Positions 4,165 to 11,831 of a DNA stretch of 37,888 nt are shown here, piece by piece. Positions within the stretch are counted from its first letter, which is position 1. Every line of letters begins with the position of its first letter. The notes beneath the pieces were generated by a model, which saw only the letters and a list, made by a program, of their open reading frames with translations, was not told the DNA's origin and searched no databases. The translations under genes were made by a program, and so were the position numbers. The DNA comes from Flavobacteriales bacterium UBA6772 (lineage in GTDB: Bacteria > Bacteroidota > Bacteroidia > Flavobacteriales > UBA7430), in contig CAJJAI010000027.1 of NCBI GenBank assembly GCA_905182215.1, positions 1 to 37,888 of the forward strand, written 5' to 3'.

Positions 4165-5334
4165 TTAAACCAACACCTTCACTTTAGAATTCTCGGTCAA
4201 CATCATCCCATCAATATTTTCAATCAGAATAATCCCTGGTTTATTACCAGCTGTAAAAGACCCTAGTTTGGAGTAGCCAAAAAATGCCGCTCCATTTTTA
4301 CAAGCCCATTCCAAAAGCGTTTCTGTAGAAATATGTGGAAAATTGGTTTGGATAAGCTTAATTTCTTCCAGAATACTCAAGGTATCGTTAGAGGCTAGAG
4401 AGTCTGTTCCTACCGTAATTTTTAAGTTCTTTTCGAGCCATAAATCGTAATCCGGAAGCGCGCGTTCTATATACCAGTTTGCCTTAGGGCAAGTACACCA
4501 ATAGGCGTTTTCGAAATGGGATTCTATTTGTTCTATATCCGAAGCCTCCGAGCAGGTATTATGCACTAATAAAACCTTCTGCTCTTTGGGTAAATAGGGT
4601 AATAAGCTGTAGTGAGAAGAGTTTTCTCCAAAGCCCATTTGCGAAGAAATATCCAATCCTTTCCCTCTAAACAAATCTGCTAAATCGCCTTTAGACTCTA
4701 AAAACATTTCGTTTTCTGAGGGAGTTTCTTGGTGGTGAATACTTAACAATTGATCTTTAGAATTGAAGTAAATACCTTCTAATAAAGCAGGCGATAGCGA
4801 ATAGGGTGCGTGAGGAACCAAAGAAGCCGAAAGTTCAGCTCTTTGATAATCTCCTACCACCTTCAATCCATCAGCTAATAAGGTAGTGGCTTGATTTTTA
4901 TCCAATCCAAAAATCTCCACAAAAGAGTGGTACTTAATAACGCTCAATTTCTTTACTTCAAGAGTATCCGTGGTGTTCGATATATCACCTACTGCAACAA
5001 TCCCAGCGGCTATCATTTCTTTATCCCCAGAGATTATAGATGCTACAGAATCAAGAATACATTCATTTCTACGTGTTGGAATCTGGCTCACAAATTCCGG
5101 TAGCCCCGTCGCCTCCGGCATTAGGTCTTTCATGTTCGAAAGCTCTAAATGACAGTGGGTGTTTACAAAGCCTGGGCACACAATACCATCGTACACTTCT
5201 ACCTCAAAATCATGCGAAATTGGGGCAATATCGGTCAGGTGAATTACAGTTCCATCGTCTTCAATAAAAAGAAAGCCGTTCTTAATAGGAGCAGCGTTTA
5301 AAGGAATAATATAGGAAGCTTGAATTATACGCAT
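4165..5334 (-). CDS. Metal-dependent amidohydrolase (SsnA/TrzN-like deaminase or chlorohydrolase group)
   Basis: The 389-residue product has the amidohydrolase metal and catalytic pattern in order: H60-x-H62 (VNTHCHLELSN), H200-H-x-E203 (HHQETPSENE), H258 (LLVHNTCSEAS) and D311 (VGTDSLASND). This places it with cytosolic aminohydrolases that deaminate guanine, S-adenosylhomocysteine or related heterocycles; the exact substrate cannot be read from sequence. I start at 5334 (MRIIQASYIIPL), where the family begins. An in-frame upstream ATG at 5403 would overlap rlmN and would also lie upstream of a perfect promoter box (TACCTTTG, minus strand, 5349-5356). The mRNA leader is then only about 7 bases. 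The gene is divergent from rlmN. Confidence 0.85.
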   Translation of the reverse strand: MRIIQASYIIPLNAAPIKNGFLFIEDDGTVIHLTDIAPISHDFEVEVYDGIVCPGFVNTHCHLELSNMKDLMPEATGLPEFVSQIPTRRNECILDSVASIISGDKEMIAAGIVAVGDISNTTDTLEVKKLSVIKYHSFVEIFGLDKNQATTLLADGLKVVGDYQRAELSASLVPHAPYSLSPALLEGIYFNSKDQLLSIHHQETPSENEMFLESKGDLADLFRGKGLDISSQMGFGENSSHYSLLPYLPKEQKVLLVHNTCSEASDIEQIESHFENAYWCTCPKANWYIERALPDYDLWLEKNLKITVGTDSLASNDTLSILEEIKLIQTNFPHISTETLLEWACKNGAAFFGYSKLGSFTAGNKPGIILIENIDGMMLTENSKVKVLV

Positions 5335-5348
5335 CGAGTAAATTTTTT

Positions 5349-6467: not shown

Positions 6468-7442
6468 ATGTCTTTAGTCAATCAAATAAAAGCGCCAATA
6501 AAAAATGAAATGGACTCTTTTGAGTCTAAGTTCAAAACGACCATGGCGAGTAAGGTTCACTTACTAGATAAAATTACACACTATATTGTAAAACGAAAGG
6601 GTAAGCAAATGCGCCCTATGTTTGTTTTTCTCTCTGCAAAATTATGTGGCGAGCTCAACGAAAGTACTTATCGTGGTGCTTCTATGATAGAGCTTTTGCA
6701 TACCGCTACTTTGGTACACGACGACGTAGTAGACGATGCCAACATGCGCCGTGGATTCTTTTCTATTAACGCACTATGGAAAAATAAAATTGCCGTTTTA
6801 GTAGGCGATTTCTTATTGTCTAAAGGTTTATTGCTCGCCGTAAAAAACGAAGATTTTCACTTATTAAAACTCACTTCTCGTGCGGTAGAGGAAATGAGTG
6901 AAGGTGAGTTGTTGCAAATTGAAAAAGCACGCCGTTTAGACATCGTTGAGGATGTGTACTACGAGATTATCCGTAAAAAAACCGCCTCCCTAATTGCGGC
7001 TTGTTGTGCTGTGGGCTGTTCTTCTGTTTCGAAAGATGAAGAACTGATCCAGAAAATGTGGAGTTTTGGCGAGGCTATTGGAATTGCTTTTCAAATAAAA
7101 GACGACTTATTCGATTATCAAAAGCAAGGATTAATTGGCAAACCTGTAGGTATAGACATCAAAGAGCAAAAAATGACTTTGCCTTTAATTTATGCGCTAC
7201 AACATTGCGATAAAAACACTCGTAAGTCGGTTATCAATACCATTAAACGACATCATAACAATCCTAAAAAGGTGAAAGAAGTAATTGCCTTTGTGCGCGA
7301 AAGTGGTGGCTTGGAATATGCCGAAAAGAGTATGTACGAATACCAGGCTAAAGCCATTGAGATACTTTCTACTACACCCGATTCCGAAGCGAAAACTTCT
7401 TTACAAGCTTTAATAAAATACGTAATTGATCGGAAGAAGTAA
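6468..7442 (+). CDS. Polyprenyl diphosphate synthase (trans-type)
   Basis: The 324-residue all-helical prenyltransferase condenses isopentenyl diphosphate onto allylic diphosphates to make a long chain, in this group most likely the menaquinone side chain. The first Asp-rich motif is D85-D86-V-V-D89 (LVHDDVVDD), followed by NMRRG. The second is D212-D213-L-F-D216 (QIKDDLFDY), followed by IGKPVGIDIKEQKMTLPLIYAL. No bulky residue caps the pocket just before the first motif (SMIELLHTATLVH), consistent with a long-chain product, but chain length cannot be fixed. It lies 46 bases after rlmN, which suggests co-transcription. Confidence 0.93.
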   Translation: MSLVNQIKAPIKNEMDSFESKFKTTMASKVHLLDKITHYIVKRKGKQMRPMFVFLSAKLCGELNESTYRGASMIELLHTATLVHDDVVDDANMRRGFFSINALWKNKIAVLVGDFLLSKGLLLAVKNEDFHLLKLTSRAVEEMSEGELLQIEKARRLDIVEDVYYEIIRKKTASLIAACCAVGCSSVSKDEELIQKMWSFGEAIGIAFQIKDDLFDYQKQGLIGKPVGIDIKEQKMTLPLIYALQHCDKNTRKSVINTIKRHHNNPKKVKEVIAFVRESGGLEYAEKSMYEYQAKAIEILSTTPDSEAKTSLQALIKYVIDRKK

Positions 7443-7575: not shown

Positions 7576-9504
7576 TTGATTCCAAAGGAAACCATAGACC
7601 TCATTTTCGAAACTGCCCGTATAGACGAGGTGGTAGGCGATTTTGTGCACCTCAAAAAACGAGGGGTCAATATGTTGGGTAACTGTCCGTTTCACGACGA
7701 AAAAACGCCTTCTTTTACTGTTTCTCCTGCCAAAGGAATATACAAGTGTTTTGGTTGTGGTAAAGGAGGGAATTCGGTGAATTTCGTAATGGATCACGAG
7801 CATTTTTCGTATCCAGAAGCCTTAAAATTCCTCGCTAGTAAATACAATATCTTTATTGAAGAGCAGGAGCGTACCCCCGAACAGGAGGAAGCTGCCAACG
7901 ATAGAGAGAGTATGTACATTGTTAGTAATAGTGCTAACGAGTATTTTCAAGACCAACTTTTTAACGGCGATGAAGGGCGTGCTATAGGTCTAAGTTATTT
8001 TAAAGAAAGAGGCTTTAGAGAAGACACACTCAAAAAATTTCAGCTCGGTTACAGTCCAGAAAAAAGCGATGCTTTTTCTACGCATGCACTAAAGGAAGGA
8101 TATAAAATAGAATTCCTAGAAAAAACAGGCTTAACGATCCCAAAAGAATCTCGAAACTACGACCGATTCCGTGGAAGAGTGATGTTTCCTATTCATTCGC
8201 TTTCGGGTAGAATATTAGGTTTTGGAGGAAGGATATTAAAAAGCAATGTTAAGGCTGCCAAATACCTCAATTCTCCAGAGAGTGAAATATATTCTAAGAG
8301 TAAAGTGCTCTATGGTATGTATCAGGCAAAAAATAGCATTGTTAAAAAAGAGCGCTGTTTATTAGTTGAAGGATATACCGATGTGGTGTCTATGCACCAA
8401 GCTGGTATAGAAAACGTAGTAGCTTCTTCGGGTACTTCTTTAACTGTTGATCAAATAAAATTAGTAAAACGGTTTACCAATAATATAACACTGCTTTTCG
8501 ATGGGGATGCTGCGGGATTAAAAGCAGCGCTTAGAGGGGTGAATTTAATTCTTCAAGAAGGACTTAACGTAAAGGTAGTTACCTTTCCTGATGGAGAAGA
8601 TCCAGATTCTTATGCTAAGAAAGTAAGCTCGGAAGAACTCGAAAACTATATAGATTCTCAGGCAAAAGATTTTATAGAATTTAAATGCTCTTTGCTTTTA
8701 GCCGAAGCTAAGGAGGATCCTATAAAAAGGGCTGAGTTAATAAAAGATATTGCAGCTACCATAGCACTTATACCCGATACTATTTCGAGAACGGTATATG
8801 CACAAAGCTCCTCTTCTATTTTAGGAATAGACGAACAGCTTATCTTCTCTAGCATAGAGCAGTCGCGTTCTGGGAAAACTCCAGTAGCGAAAAGCGAAGC
8901 TATGCAAGTGGTGTTTACTGGCACCAAGAAAGCAAGCAAGGTAGAGGCATTAACTTTAAGTCTTGAAGAAACTACCCTTATACGTTTATTGGTTATTTAC
9001 GGAACTTCACCTCTCAATTTTGAGTACGAAAATGAGGAAGGAGAAGAGGAAGTAACTACCGTTTCTGCTGCTGAATATATTTTATCGCAACTCGACGAAG
9101 ATGGAATAGAATTTACACATACTGCTTACAATAAAATATACACAGAGTTTGTGAATCATGTAAATGAACACGAAACCATTTTAGATGATAAACACTTTGT
9201 ACGTCATCAGGATCCTGAGATTTCTCAAGCTGTTTCGGAATTTTTAAGCGATAAATACCAACTAAGCGACTGGTCTAAAAAAGAAATTTTTGTTCCTACC
9301 GAAACCGATAAACTCAAAGAATTGGTTGTAGAGTCGGTTATCCGATTAAAGTCTAAGCAAGTAAAAATAAAAATTGCCGATATGCTTAAACAGATGAAAG
9401 ACAATACTGTACCTGAAGAGGATCGCTTAAATTTCTTACATAACTTTCAACAATTAAATAATCTGTCAATGCACATTGACAAAGAACTCGGGAGAGAATG
9501 TTGA
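7576..9504 (+). CDS. dnaG: DNA primase DnaG (TTG start)
   Basis: The 642-residue primase makes RNA primers for replication. The N-terminal CHC2 zinc ribbon ligands are C37, H40, C58 and C61. The TOPRIM core shows LLVEGYTDVVSMHQAG (catalytic Glu) and LLFDGDAAGLKAA (DGD). A C-terminal helicase-binding region follows, rich in acidic residues around EEGEEEVTT. The start must be the TTG at 7576: an in-frame stop lies at 7555-7557 with no ATG between, and the translation MIPKETIDLIFETARIDEV matches the family N-terminus exactly. A weak promoter-like TACTTTAG lies at 7550-7557. The last bases of the gene are part of a duplication copied at 10763. Confidence 0.97.
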   Translation: MIPKETIDLIFETARIDEVVGDFVHLKKRGVNMLGNCPFHDEKTPSFTVSPAKGIYKCFGCGKGGNSVNFVMDHEHFSYPEALKFLASKYNIFIEEQERTPEQEEAANDRESMYIVSNSANEYFQDQLFNGDEGRAIGLSYFKERGFREDTLKKFQLGYSPEKSDAFSTHALKEGYKIEFLEKTGLTIPKESRNYDRFRGRVMFPIHSLSGRILGFGGRILKSNVKAAKYLNSPESEIYSKSKVLYGMYQAKNSIVKKERCLLVEGYTDVVSMHQAGIENVVASSGTSLTVDQIKLVKRFTNNITLLFDGDAAGLKAALRGVNLILQEGLNVKVVTFPDGEDPDSYAKKVSSEELENYIDSQAKDFIEFKCSLLLAEAKEDPIKRAELIKDIAATIALIPDTISRTVYAQSSSSILGIDEQLIFSSIEQSRSGKTPVAKSEAMQVVFTGTKKASKVEALTLSLEETTLIRLLVIYGTSPLNFEYENEEGEEEVTTVSAAEYILSQLDEDGIEFTHTAYNKIYTEFVNHVNEHETILDDKHFVRHQDPEISQAVSEFLSDKYQLSDWSKKEIFVPTETDKLKELVVESVIRLKSKQVKIKIADMLKQMKDNTVPEEDRLNFLHNFQQLNNLSMHIDKELGREC

Positions 9505-9585
9505 TTTAGATTTATAGAAAATAACTCTTTTAAATTATAGCCTCAGCTGAGAAATCAGGAGAGGCTTTTTTAGTATGCAGTGTAT
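9493..9585. repeat. ~92-bp direct repeat, copy A (dnaG 3' end plus terminator)
   Basis: It starts inside the last codons of dnaG (AGAGAATGTTGA) and runs through the terminator to about GTGTAT. Copy B at 10763-10854 is almost co-linear, with a one-base length difference. The best-conserved blocks are AGAATGTTGA, TTAGA, GAAATCAGGAGAGG and TTTTTTAGTATG. A further shared TAAATAGT at matching offsets (9622 and 10895) suggests the duplication once reached about 140 bp. The two copies bracket the diheme lipoprotein gene. Confidence 0.8.
9539..9571 (+). terminator. Rho-independent terminator after dnaG
   Basis: AGCCTC (9539-9544) pairs with GAGGCT (9561-9566); an inner CTGA-GAAA-TCAG stem gives a GAAA tetraloop, and a T-run follows. 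It ends the rlmN-polyprenyl synthase-dnaG series. Confidence 0.85.
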
Positions 9586-9631
9586 TCGTATATTTTTAGT
9601 GAACCCTACATACCTATCCTTTAAATAGTAA

Positions 9632-9653
9632 AGTGGTTAATCTCGTAACCACT
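9632..9653. other. Small hairpin in the dnaG-lipoprotein gap
   Basis: AGTGGTTA and TAACCACT form a perfect 8-bp stem around ATCTCG, followed by CTTTATA. The 258-base gap (9505-9762) otherwise holds the dnaG terminator and no convincing small gene. Confidence 0.4.
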
Positions 9654-9762
9654 CTTTATAATATATTATATGCCAGTATAGTAAACCAAAAACAAAATAG
9701 ACATCCTAAAATATTTTGTTTAATTTGACGTTAATTGTTTTGAACTAAAAAAAGATAGATTC

Positions 9763-10764
9763 ATGAAAAAGTTAACTTACACCTTATTGGCAGTCTCAAT
9801 TATTTTTGCTGCTTGTAGAAAGGAAGAAGAAGTTACAATAGACTCTACTTGGAATTGTGATAATGGTACCTGTGTAGATCCTGGAACAGGAAACGGTACT
9901 TATACTTCATTGTCTAGTTGTGAAAGTAATTGCATATTAGCTCAAGCTGGATCTGCCTTAGCACAGGCTCAATTAATAGAAGCAGAATTAGGTCCTATTC
10001 CAACTTTTAATTGTGAAGACGGTGTATTAATTCCTATATATGTTAATGGAATAGAAGTTTTTGTAGATCAGCCCACATATGGATGCGACAATCCAGATTT
10101 AAAAGGTGAGTGTTTAACAGGTTCCCGCGTAGGAAGAATACAAGGAACAAACCAAGACGGAAGCACAAGACCAGAAGTTGTTTGGGTTTTCTTTTGTAGA
10201 AGAGGAGATGATTTTGCTCAGATGATAGGCTACAATGAAATCACTGGTAAAACGGCATTTCTTGAATTAAATAATGGTTACCTACCAACAAATGCATTTT
10301 TACAGCCAAATGTGTCTGTACCAACGCCTAATGATCCAACTTATGAAGCTGCATGGAAAGCTCCTGCAGAAATAGCTGAACAAGGTTGTAATAGCTGCCA
10401 TACATCAGACGCTTTCATTCATTCGAGATGGATAGCTGGAGCCAAATTGCCAAGTAATCCTAATGAACCAGTACTACCAGAAGTTGCAACACCACACAGT
10501 AAATATTGTGTAATTGGAAACGAATTTTCGAGCTGGGAATTAACGTTTATTGATTTGCCAGAAAATAATTGTTTAGGATGTCATAGGTTGAGTAATATTA
10601 ATGCTTGGAACTTTGCAAATAATACCGATTGGGACTTGTATATGCCACCTAACAATCCTGGTAGTATGTCGGAAGATTACCAAGAAATAAAAGATTTTAT
10701 ACAAAATTTCGGTCCATTTGAAATTGCTCCTAATGGTACTGATGTTCCACCTTGTGATGAATAG
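9763..10764 (+). CDS. Diheme cytochrome-c-like lipoprotein
   Basis: The 333-residue product begins with a lipoprotein signal (MKKLTYTLLAVSIIFAAC; Cys18 is the predicted lipidated residue). A short Cys-rich module follows, residues ~31-57 (CDNGTCVDPGTGNGTY, then a CxxxC pair), of a kind repeated in many Bacteroidota surface proteins. The C-terminal half contains two c-type heme motifs, C209-N-S-C212-H213 and C270-L-G-C273-H274, so a periplasm- or surface-facing diheme electron carrier is likely. Axial Met or His ligands cannot be assigned with certainty. I do not recognise a named family. The gene stands alone between two copies of a dnaG-tail duplication and has its own terminator, which suggests it was inserted there. 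Confidence 0.8.
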   Translation: MKKLTYTLLAVSIIFAACRKEEEVTIDSTWNCDNGTCVDPGTGNGTYTSLSSCESNCILAQAGSALAQAQLIEAELGPIPTFNCEDGVLIPIYVNGIEVFVDQPTYGCDNPDLKGECLTGSRVGRIQGTNQDGSTRPEVVWVFFCRRGDDFAQMIGYNEITGKTAFLELNNGYLPTNAFLQPNVSVPTPNDPTYEAAWKAPAEIAEQGCNSCHTSDAFIHSRWIAGAKLPSNPNEPVLPEVATPHSKYCVIGNEFSSWELTFIDLPENNCLGCHRLSNINAWNFANNTDWDLYMPPNNPGSMSEDYQEIKDFIQNFGPFEIAPNGTDVPPCDE

Positions 10765-10854
10765 AGAATGTTGACTTAGACACCCAGTTAAGACATCTTA
10801 TTTATAAAACCTCTCCTTAGAAATCAGGAGAGGTTTTTTTAGTATGTATTGTAT
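10763..10854. repeat. ~92-bp direct repeat, copy B (relic dnaG tail plus terminator)
   Basis: It begins inside the stop codon of the diheme lipoprotein gene and repeats the end of dnaG (AGAGAATGTTGA) and its downstream terminator. Compared with copy A the terminator stem has changed but AAATCAGGAGAGG and TTTTTTAGTATG are kept. See 9493-9585. Confidence 0.8.
10808..10840 (+). terminator. Rho-independent terminator after the diheme lipoprotein gene
   Basis: AACCTCTCCT (10808-10817) and AGGAGAGGTT (10826-10835) form a perfect 10-bp stem around an 8-base loop, followed by a T-run. Confidence 0.88.
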
Positions 10855-10940
10855 GCTCTGTTTTTAGAAAGAAGATTTATGATACACATCGCTATAAATA
10901 GTTAATTTTTGCCGTAACTTTACCCTAATAAAAAGAGCTA

Positions 10941-11831
10941 ATGATGTCTAAATGCGTTCAGTTTCAAGTAGGTGGCGTGCCAGAGCATTTTAATTTACCC
11001 TGGAAAAAAGCCCTAGAAGAAAATCGCTTTGAAGCGCATGGAATTTCTGTTTCATGGAAAGATTATCATGGAGGTACCGGAGAGATGACTAAAGCCTTAA
11101 GAGAGGGCGAATTAGACATAGCTATACTCCTTACTGAAGGAATTATAGCCGATATTCATCGTGGCAATCCAAGTAAAATAGTGCAGTTTTATGTAAAATC
11201 TCCACTTCGTTGGGGTATTCATGTAGGTGCAAATTCAAAGTTTAATGCTGTAAAAGACTTAGAAAATACCCGTGCTGCCATTTCTCGCTTTGGATCAGGC
11301 TCGCATTTAATGGCGTATGTAAACGCCGACAACTATAAGTGGGATTTAGCAAAACAAAAATTTGAAGTCGTTAAAAATTTAGATGGAGGTCGTGAATTCT
11401 TAACTGAAGGAAAGGCAGACTACTTCCTTTGGGAGAAATTTACAACAAAACCTTTTGTAGACAATGGAGAGTTTAGAATTGTAGGCGAATGCCCTACTCC
11501 ATGGCCAAGTTTTGTGGTAGCTGTAAGAGGTGATTTATTGCTTACGCATAACAAAGAAATAGAAGCGGTTTTAAAAATTGTAAACGAATCTTGCGCTCAA
11601 GTAAAAGCTTCCCAAGACTCCATTAAAGAGATTGCTGAGCGTTACCAGCTTAAAGAAGTAGACGTAGCCGTTTGGTTTAATGAAACCCAATGGGCTTGTA
11701 ATGGGGATTTAGAGTCTGAGATAATAGATCAAGTTCAAGAGCGTTTAATAGACCTTGAAATTATTGATGCCAAAATGGATTTTGACATGCTTTGCAAACC
11801 TTTTGATGAGCAGTTAGAAAATGTAAAATAA
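10941..11831 (+). CDS. Cytoplasmic periplasmic-binding-protein-fold (SsuA/THI5-like) substrate-binding protein
   Basis: The 296-residue product has the type-2 periplasmic-binding fold of the SsuA/THI5-like group: a first lobe with MTKALREGELDIAILLTEGII, a hinge region at SPLRWGIHVGANS, then VKDLENTRAAISRFGSGSHLMAY and a second lobe ending TPWPSFVVAVRGDLL. There is no signal peptide or lipobox and no ABC permease or ATPase next to it, so it is probably not a classical transporter component. A cytoplasmic sensor or enzyme of THI5/MqnA/MqnD-like ancestry is possible. A -7-like box (TAACTTTA, 10915-10922) lies 18 bases before the ATG. Confidence 0.7.
   Translation: MMSKCVQFQVGGVPEHFNLPWKKALEENRFEAHGISVSWKDYHGGTGEMTKALREGELDIAILLTEGIIADIHRGNPSKIVQFYVKSPLRWGIHVGANSKFNAVKDLENTRAAISRFGSGSHLMAYVNADNYKWDLAKQKFEVVKNLDGGREFLTEGKADYFLWEKFTTKPFVDNGEFRIVGECPTPWPSFVVAVRGDLLLTHNKEIEAVLKIVNESCAQVKASQDSIKEIAERYQLKEVDVAVWFNETQWACNGDLESEIIDQVQERLIDLEIIDAKMDFDMLCKPFDEQLENVK

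Follow-up and report, generated by a model that had tools for sequence, protein, structure and literature searches.

Integrative elements at the 3' ends of protein genes include SCC at rlmH and SXT-type elements at prfC, and these elements encode their own recombinase together with many genes. Additive flexible genomic islands consist of cassettes at tRNA genes in which the tRNA 3' end is directly repeated; their units can be as small as one CDS, can stand in tandem and often have the recombinase located off the unit (PMC10872708, PMC7771536, PMC5217437), and the repeat measures about 20 nt (PMC10872708). Tycheposons are tRNA-associated cargo elements of 4-200 kb that carry a tyrosine recombinase (PMC10872708). 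In the Vibrio T6SS effector-immunity arrays, it is an old effector end or an immunity gene that has been displaced (PMC5361080). A search of a literature library for integration at dnaG gave no pertinent paper.

The window, meaning the whole 37,888-nt stretch of DNA analysed here, is contig 27 of its own genome (G000), which is about 62% complete. The following features make up the dnaG locus and its surroundings.

7576..9504, + strand: dnaG (DNA primase), the host gene, intact; 642-aa ORF with domain matches and amino acid identity to relatives
9445..9599, + strand: copy 1 of the tail, comprising the final ~60 nt of dnaG, a spacer, the terminator and ~30 nt more
9539..9566, + strand: copy 1 terminator hairpin with a G-C outer pair (-15.8 kcal/mol, z -3.85)
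9600..9762, + strand: non-coding stretch from copy 1 to the cargo gene (89% identity with G003), a likely promoter region for the cargo
9763..10764, + strand: the cargo, a 333-aa lipoprotein gene with two haem c motifs (ORF, motifs, homologues)
10763..10867, + strand: copy 2 of the tail, from the cargo stop codon on (repeat match; groups with the G002 tail)
10806..10837, + strand: copy 2 terminator hairpin with an A-T outer pair, which G002 shares; it now ends the cargo gene
10941..11831, + strand: Ca3427-like periplasmic-binding-protein gene (PF22384, E=4e-20), found beside dnaG in five relatives

The left limit of copy 1 (9445) was set from a second carrier genome, G003, while the repeat detected in the window itself starts at 9493. 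The dnaG product contains the Zn_ribbon_DnaG, DNAG_N, Toprim and DnaB_bind domains (Pfam) and shares 93% amino acid identity with the dnaG products of both G003 and a congener, G002. Across the family the native right neighbour of dnaG is the Ca3427-like gene (G002, G004, G005, G008 and G011).

The unit resembles the SCC and SXT-type elements in that the 3' end of a protein gene would be rebuilt by the copy on the element, but it consists of one gene and has no recombinase. Like additive islands, it shows a restored host gene, a second copy of that gene's 3' end on the distal side of the unit, and empty sites in relatives. In contrast to those islands, the target is the protein gene dnaG rather than a tRNA gene, a single unit is present, and the repeat in the window and G003 is 107-156 nt long, against ~20 nt (PMC10872708), and includes the terminator. 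We conclude that the unit works like an additive cassette, but on a protein gene, and hence represents a variant rather than a member of that class. Tycheposons share with it the integration at a gene 3' end and the movement of cargo between marine bacteria, whereas the window unit is only ~1.3 kb, holds one gene, stands at dnaG and has no PF00589 match on its contig. As in the Vibrio T6SS arrays, a new gene follows a shared anchor and the old 3' part has moved downstream; here, however, the host gene remains complete and the repeat is confined to its tail and terminator.

The initial annotation had reported that the dnaG tail and its terminator recur directly behind the lipoprotein stop, and our alignments confirmed this. 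The two copies are co-linear, with a gapped match of 9493-9599 to 10763-10867 (75% over 107 nt, E=4.5e-12 against the 62%-complete genome) and two ungapped blocks, 9493-9510 versus 10763-10780 (17/18 identical) and 9536-9585 versus 10805-10854 (84% identical). Terminator folds were predicted for both copies (z -3.9 for copy 1 and -4.8 for copy 2). The runner-up place for the tail repeat in the 62%-complete genome reached only E=0.09; thus the co-linearity is not due to chance, nor to a terminator family found genome-wide, which had been named as a possible refutation. A control scan of 265 genes, in which the score was the best local match between the 450 nt upstream and the 400 nt downstream of a gene, gave 72 and 177 for the dnaG units of the window and G003, and no more than 30 for all others.

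The hallmarks of an insertion sequence or transposon were not found in the unit, which holds one gene, lacks suitable terminal inverted repeats and carries a host-derived repeat of 107-156 nt. A PF00589 profile search of the G000 contigs found no tyrosine recombinase in the window, and the sole match lay on contig 55. The earlier remark that no recombinase is present is borne out for tyrosine recombinases (PF00589), the class that this search covered. In G000 and G003, genomes that are 62-67% complete, one PF00589 protein each was found, away from the contigs of the units. A search of ~419 kb of contigs for other tail-flanked genes returned one different, non-collinear pair only, on G000 contig 16. 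On this contig (L170), a leucine-rich-repeat gene and a GNAT gene lie between non-coding repeats of 85-89% identity (6736-6871 and 9399-9626) whose order differs on the two sides; this may be another inserted unit.

The second carrier, G003 (DKGK01000100.1, Flavobacteriales bacterium UBA6772), has the same gene order as the window, and its tail repeat extends over 156 nt at 84% (E=3e-37), in agreement with an early estimate that the repeat might reach ~140 bp. The G003 repeat is longer because its copy 2 retains ~57 nt of decayed dnaG coding sequence. These ~57 nt are absent from copy 2 of the window, from which they were probably lost by a short deletion at TAGAGAA/TAGAATG. The dnaG coding sequence in G003 copy 2, together with the uniqueness of the repeat in the genome, rules out a common terminator family. 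Similarly, the same arrangement in two separately assembled species, whose dnaG genes are ~85% alike (85.5% nt), rules out an assembly artefact. Relatives that carry the gene with unrelated flanks, which would have spoken against the annotation, were not found; G003, the other carrier, has the same flanks. Taken together as one explanation, chance, a common terminator family or an assembly artefact is thus extremely improbable, even with the terminator hairpin making up half of the conserved bases, given control scores of at most 30 against 72 and 177.

Empty sites with a single repeat, which the annotation had proposed to look for, do occur in relatives. In G002, dnaG is followed by a single tail and then by the binding-protein gene, and in G004, G005, G008 and G011, which belong to other genera of the same family, the distance from dnaG to the binding-protein gene is 87-129 bp. 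Full-length cargo homologues among 99 relatives were found only in G000 and G003, and no relative carries the cargo elsewhere near dnaG. The contents of the dnaG site seen among relatives are either the cargo unit or nothing. At 30 dnaG loci of relatives we found no comparable dnaG-tail repeat, with short weak matches in three. At one dnaG locus (G010:C1:456737-458660), the gene reads as two overlapping pieces with internal stop codons, reflecting a frameshift in either the gene or the assembly. The branching of G000, G002 and G003 is nearly a trichotomy (56% support in the dnaG tree), and an 8.5-kb region weakly favours G000 with G003 (267 versus 224 versus 173 sites). Since the order of the congeners is so close to a trichotomy, the cargo may have been gained in the genus ancestor and lost in G002, or it may have been gained later.

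The single tail of G002 allowed us to ask which copy is native, using an alignment from the dnaG stop region to the repeat end (~105 columns) and an unrooted tree. G002 is 84% identical to each copy 2 of G000 and G003 and 74-77% identical to each copy 1. It shares one 3-nt and one 1-nt deletion with G000 copy 2, and the outer pair of its terminator is A-T, as in both copies 2, where both copies 1 have G-C. In the tree, G002 falls inside the copy 2 group (bootstraps of 90 and 82) and the copy 1 sequences stand apart, which is the outcome predicted if copy 1 was imported and the native tail displaced. Judged by these sequence comparisons, copy 2 is probably the displaced native dnaG tail, and the copy in which dnaG now ends, copy 1, seems to have been imported. 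Some gene conversion between the tail copies is likely, since the closest sequence to G000 copy 1 is G003 copy 2 (85%).

The cargo family also stands behind other host genes. A contig scan identified a third close homologue on L115 (CAJJCK010000146.1) of uncultured Cryomorphaceae FRAM18_bin126 (G337), a member of another family; its product has 77% amino acid identity to the window cargo, compared with 42-49% identity to the window dnaG for dnaG proteins from other genomes of that family. In G337 the homologue stands behind tRNA-Ala(GGC); a second copy of the tRNA sequence from the T-arm to the 3' end, together with the terminator, lies behind the cargo (one block of 35 nt at 100% and one of 47 nt at 83%; taken together 85 nt, E=2e-14). 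Relatives in the G337 genus show the empty site, with tRNA-Ala, one terminator and the same next gene; the flank AAGACGAACCGTGCATCA comes after copy 2 in L115, and in close relatives it comes after their one terminator. L115 also has a second hairpin that almost matches the copy 2 terminator (5246-5270 and 5320-5344), immediately ahead of the tRNA fragment that closes the tRNA-Ala unit on the right. In L182 (G402) and L185 (G194), other single genes, for a ~180-aa secreted protein and a small EGF-like lipoprotein, lie between tRNA-Ala(GGC) and a 195-aa gene, the position of the haem lipoprotein in L115; no tRNA-tail repeat was seen behind them.

More distant homologues have 37-40% identity and include those of G398 and G204. 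In G398 the homologue lies behind tRNA-Met with a 45-nt repeat at 96%, and a second one-gene unit follows in tandem. In G204 it lies behind an XRE-type gene; the repeat there is exact, measures 28 nt and has only two occurrences in that genome, a run of N separating the stop codon from the second repeat copy. The score used in the control scan was 101 at the tRNA-Ala unit, 56 at the XRE unit and 78 at the tRNA-Met unit. The homologues of G325 and G185 scored 20 and 27, respectively, and have no host-tail repeat flanks; that of G214 ends at a contig end, and the repeat in G287 is a tandem paralogue. Thus the cargo family is flanked by repeats of host-gene tails at four 3' ends: dnaG, tRNA-Ala, tRNA-Met and XRE. 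The copies in G337 and G398, which stand at tRNA genes, fit the additive-island pattern.

In the FRAM18_bin126 genus, tRNA-Met(CAT) is a hot spot of one-gene cassettes with at least five different genes (L190, L191, L192, L194, L198, L200). Their cargo includes the haem lipoprotein, a T9SS-type protein, small secreted or barrel-like proteins and a 279-aa lipoprotein. These cassettes share the end arm CTTCGACCTTTTCTCCAGAATGTCTAC, mostly followed by AAGGAAAAGCC and a terminator, and some of the units are in tandem. Site contents vary at both tRNA-Met and tRNA-Ala of the genus. Site-specific integration with an attP-borne arm yields different cargo with one junction, and repeated integration at a restored site yields units in tandem.

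The cargo protein has an N-terminal Cys-rich motif, a lipoprotein signal and two conserved haem c motifs, CNSCH and CLGCH; Pfam matches to cytochrome c were sub-threshold only. These features suggest an envelope electron-transfer protein. A search of solved structures gave no match, and the AlphaFold model of the cargo was too poor for use (mean pLDDT 42). With respect to a carrier virus, IMG/VR contained no match to the cargo. Some homologues adjoin AraC-type regulators, and that of G185 adjoins a second, one-haem lipoprotein and a YceI-like gene, these neighbours being named by inspection. An N-terminal motif of the cargo, CDNGTCVDPGTGNGTYTSLSSCESNC (window 9850-9930), is found again, frequently as tandem copies, in many proteins of the order that are otherwise unrelated, and is missing from the L115 homologue.

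Between G000 and G003 the cargo is 95.6% identical at the nucleotide level and 92% at third codon positions, as compared with 85.5% and 67% for dnaG and 84% and 68% for the right neighbour. The non-coding stretch before the cargo is 89% identical and the other flanks 79-87%. It is likely that the cargo was transferred between the two species after their split; the alternative is strong constraint on the gene.

Based on these results, we favour, with some reserve, a gene-restoring integration at the 3' end as the explanation for the dnaG unit. A one-gene unit of ~1.27 kb, consisting of a dnaG tail, a terminator and the lipoprotein gene, would have entered at the dnaG 3' end, bringing its own version of that end and its terminator. 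Recombination within the shared tail would join the incoming version to the body of dnaG as copy 1, so that the gene stays whole, and would shift the native tail, with its terminator, beyond the new gene as copy 2, where it now ends the inserted gene. The moving form may have been a circle bearing an attP-like tail, and a tyrosine recombinase could have been supplied in trans by a helper element or phage, or lost later. The repeat, the second species with the same arrangement, the empty sites, the native-like copy 2 and the three other tail-flanked sites are observed directly; site-specific integration at dnaG is suggested by analogy with the tRNA-Met units. With related genes placed in the same way behind three other host genes, the unit behaves as a small mobile cassette without a recombinase of its own. 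Of the two origins that the annotation had offered, integration at the 3' end is the better supported, by the empty sites, the tail tree and the other 3' ends. Several points speak against it: the repeat is long for an att core; the unit has no recombinase, and no dedicated integrase was seen in G000 and G003 (62-67% complete); the tail phylogeny spans only ~105 columns, with G000 copy 1 nearest to G003 copy 2; there is a single known family of insertions at dnaG; and two homologues (G325 and G185) have no such flanks.

Among the alternatives, homology-facilitated illegitimate recombination is a serious competitor for the dnaG copy, if a clearly less likely one. A linear donor with the dnaG 3' part, the terminator and the lipoprotein gene would pair within dnaG at the left, and its right end would be joined illegitimately within the recipient dnaG tail, which is kept as copy 2, so that a recombinase is unnecessary. 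This process would leave the same arrangement at dnaG, with copy 1 imported and copy 2 native, it agrees with the lack of an integrase near the unit, and it was proposed for the displaced 3' ends in the Vibrio T6SS arrays (PMC5361080). However, it is reported to be rare (PMC5361080) and requires a donor in which the gene already stood behind dnaG. On its own it also leaves unexplained one cargo family at four unrelated, tail-flanked 3' ends, as well as the conserved right arm of the differing tRNA-Met cargo.

Duplication in place, in which dnaG or its tail was tandemly duplicated with the lipoprotein gene, or the gene was captured later, and most of the second dnaG was deleted, we judge to be distinctly improbable. 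The decayed dnaG remnant in G003 copy 2 and the 81-84% likeness of the two G003 copies are what it would leave behind, but G002 nests within the copy 2 group and not between the copy groups, the same flanks at tRNA-Ala, tRNA-Met and the XRE gene would need a repeat of the same accident, and the gene lies elsewhere near dnaG in no relative. Duplication followed by gene capture, the other origin offered by the annotation, is accordingly the less likely of the two in light of the tail tree and the same flanks elsewhere.

Beyond the dnaG locus, gene-restoring integration raises the possibility, which we put forward tentatively, of a class of one-gene cassettes in marine Flavobacteriales. Such cassettes would use a host 3' end with its terminator as their site, in tRNA and protein genes alike, would depend on a recombinase in trans, would borrow the native terminator of the host gene and could have carried the haem lipoprotein between families. 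The locus is unusual in its protein-gene target, its one-gene payload and the presence of one cargo family at four 3' ends, and with its empty sites it provides a clear example of a single gene entering a small marine genome without visible mobile machinery. The insertion lies at dnaG, an essential replication gene, and leaves that gene intact. The recurrence at four sites and the arm of the tRNA-Met cassettes make it testable what moves gene cassettes that have no integrase, and whether the same machinery targets protein genes too.
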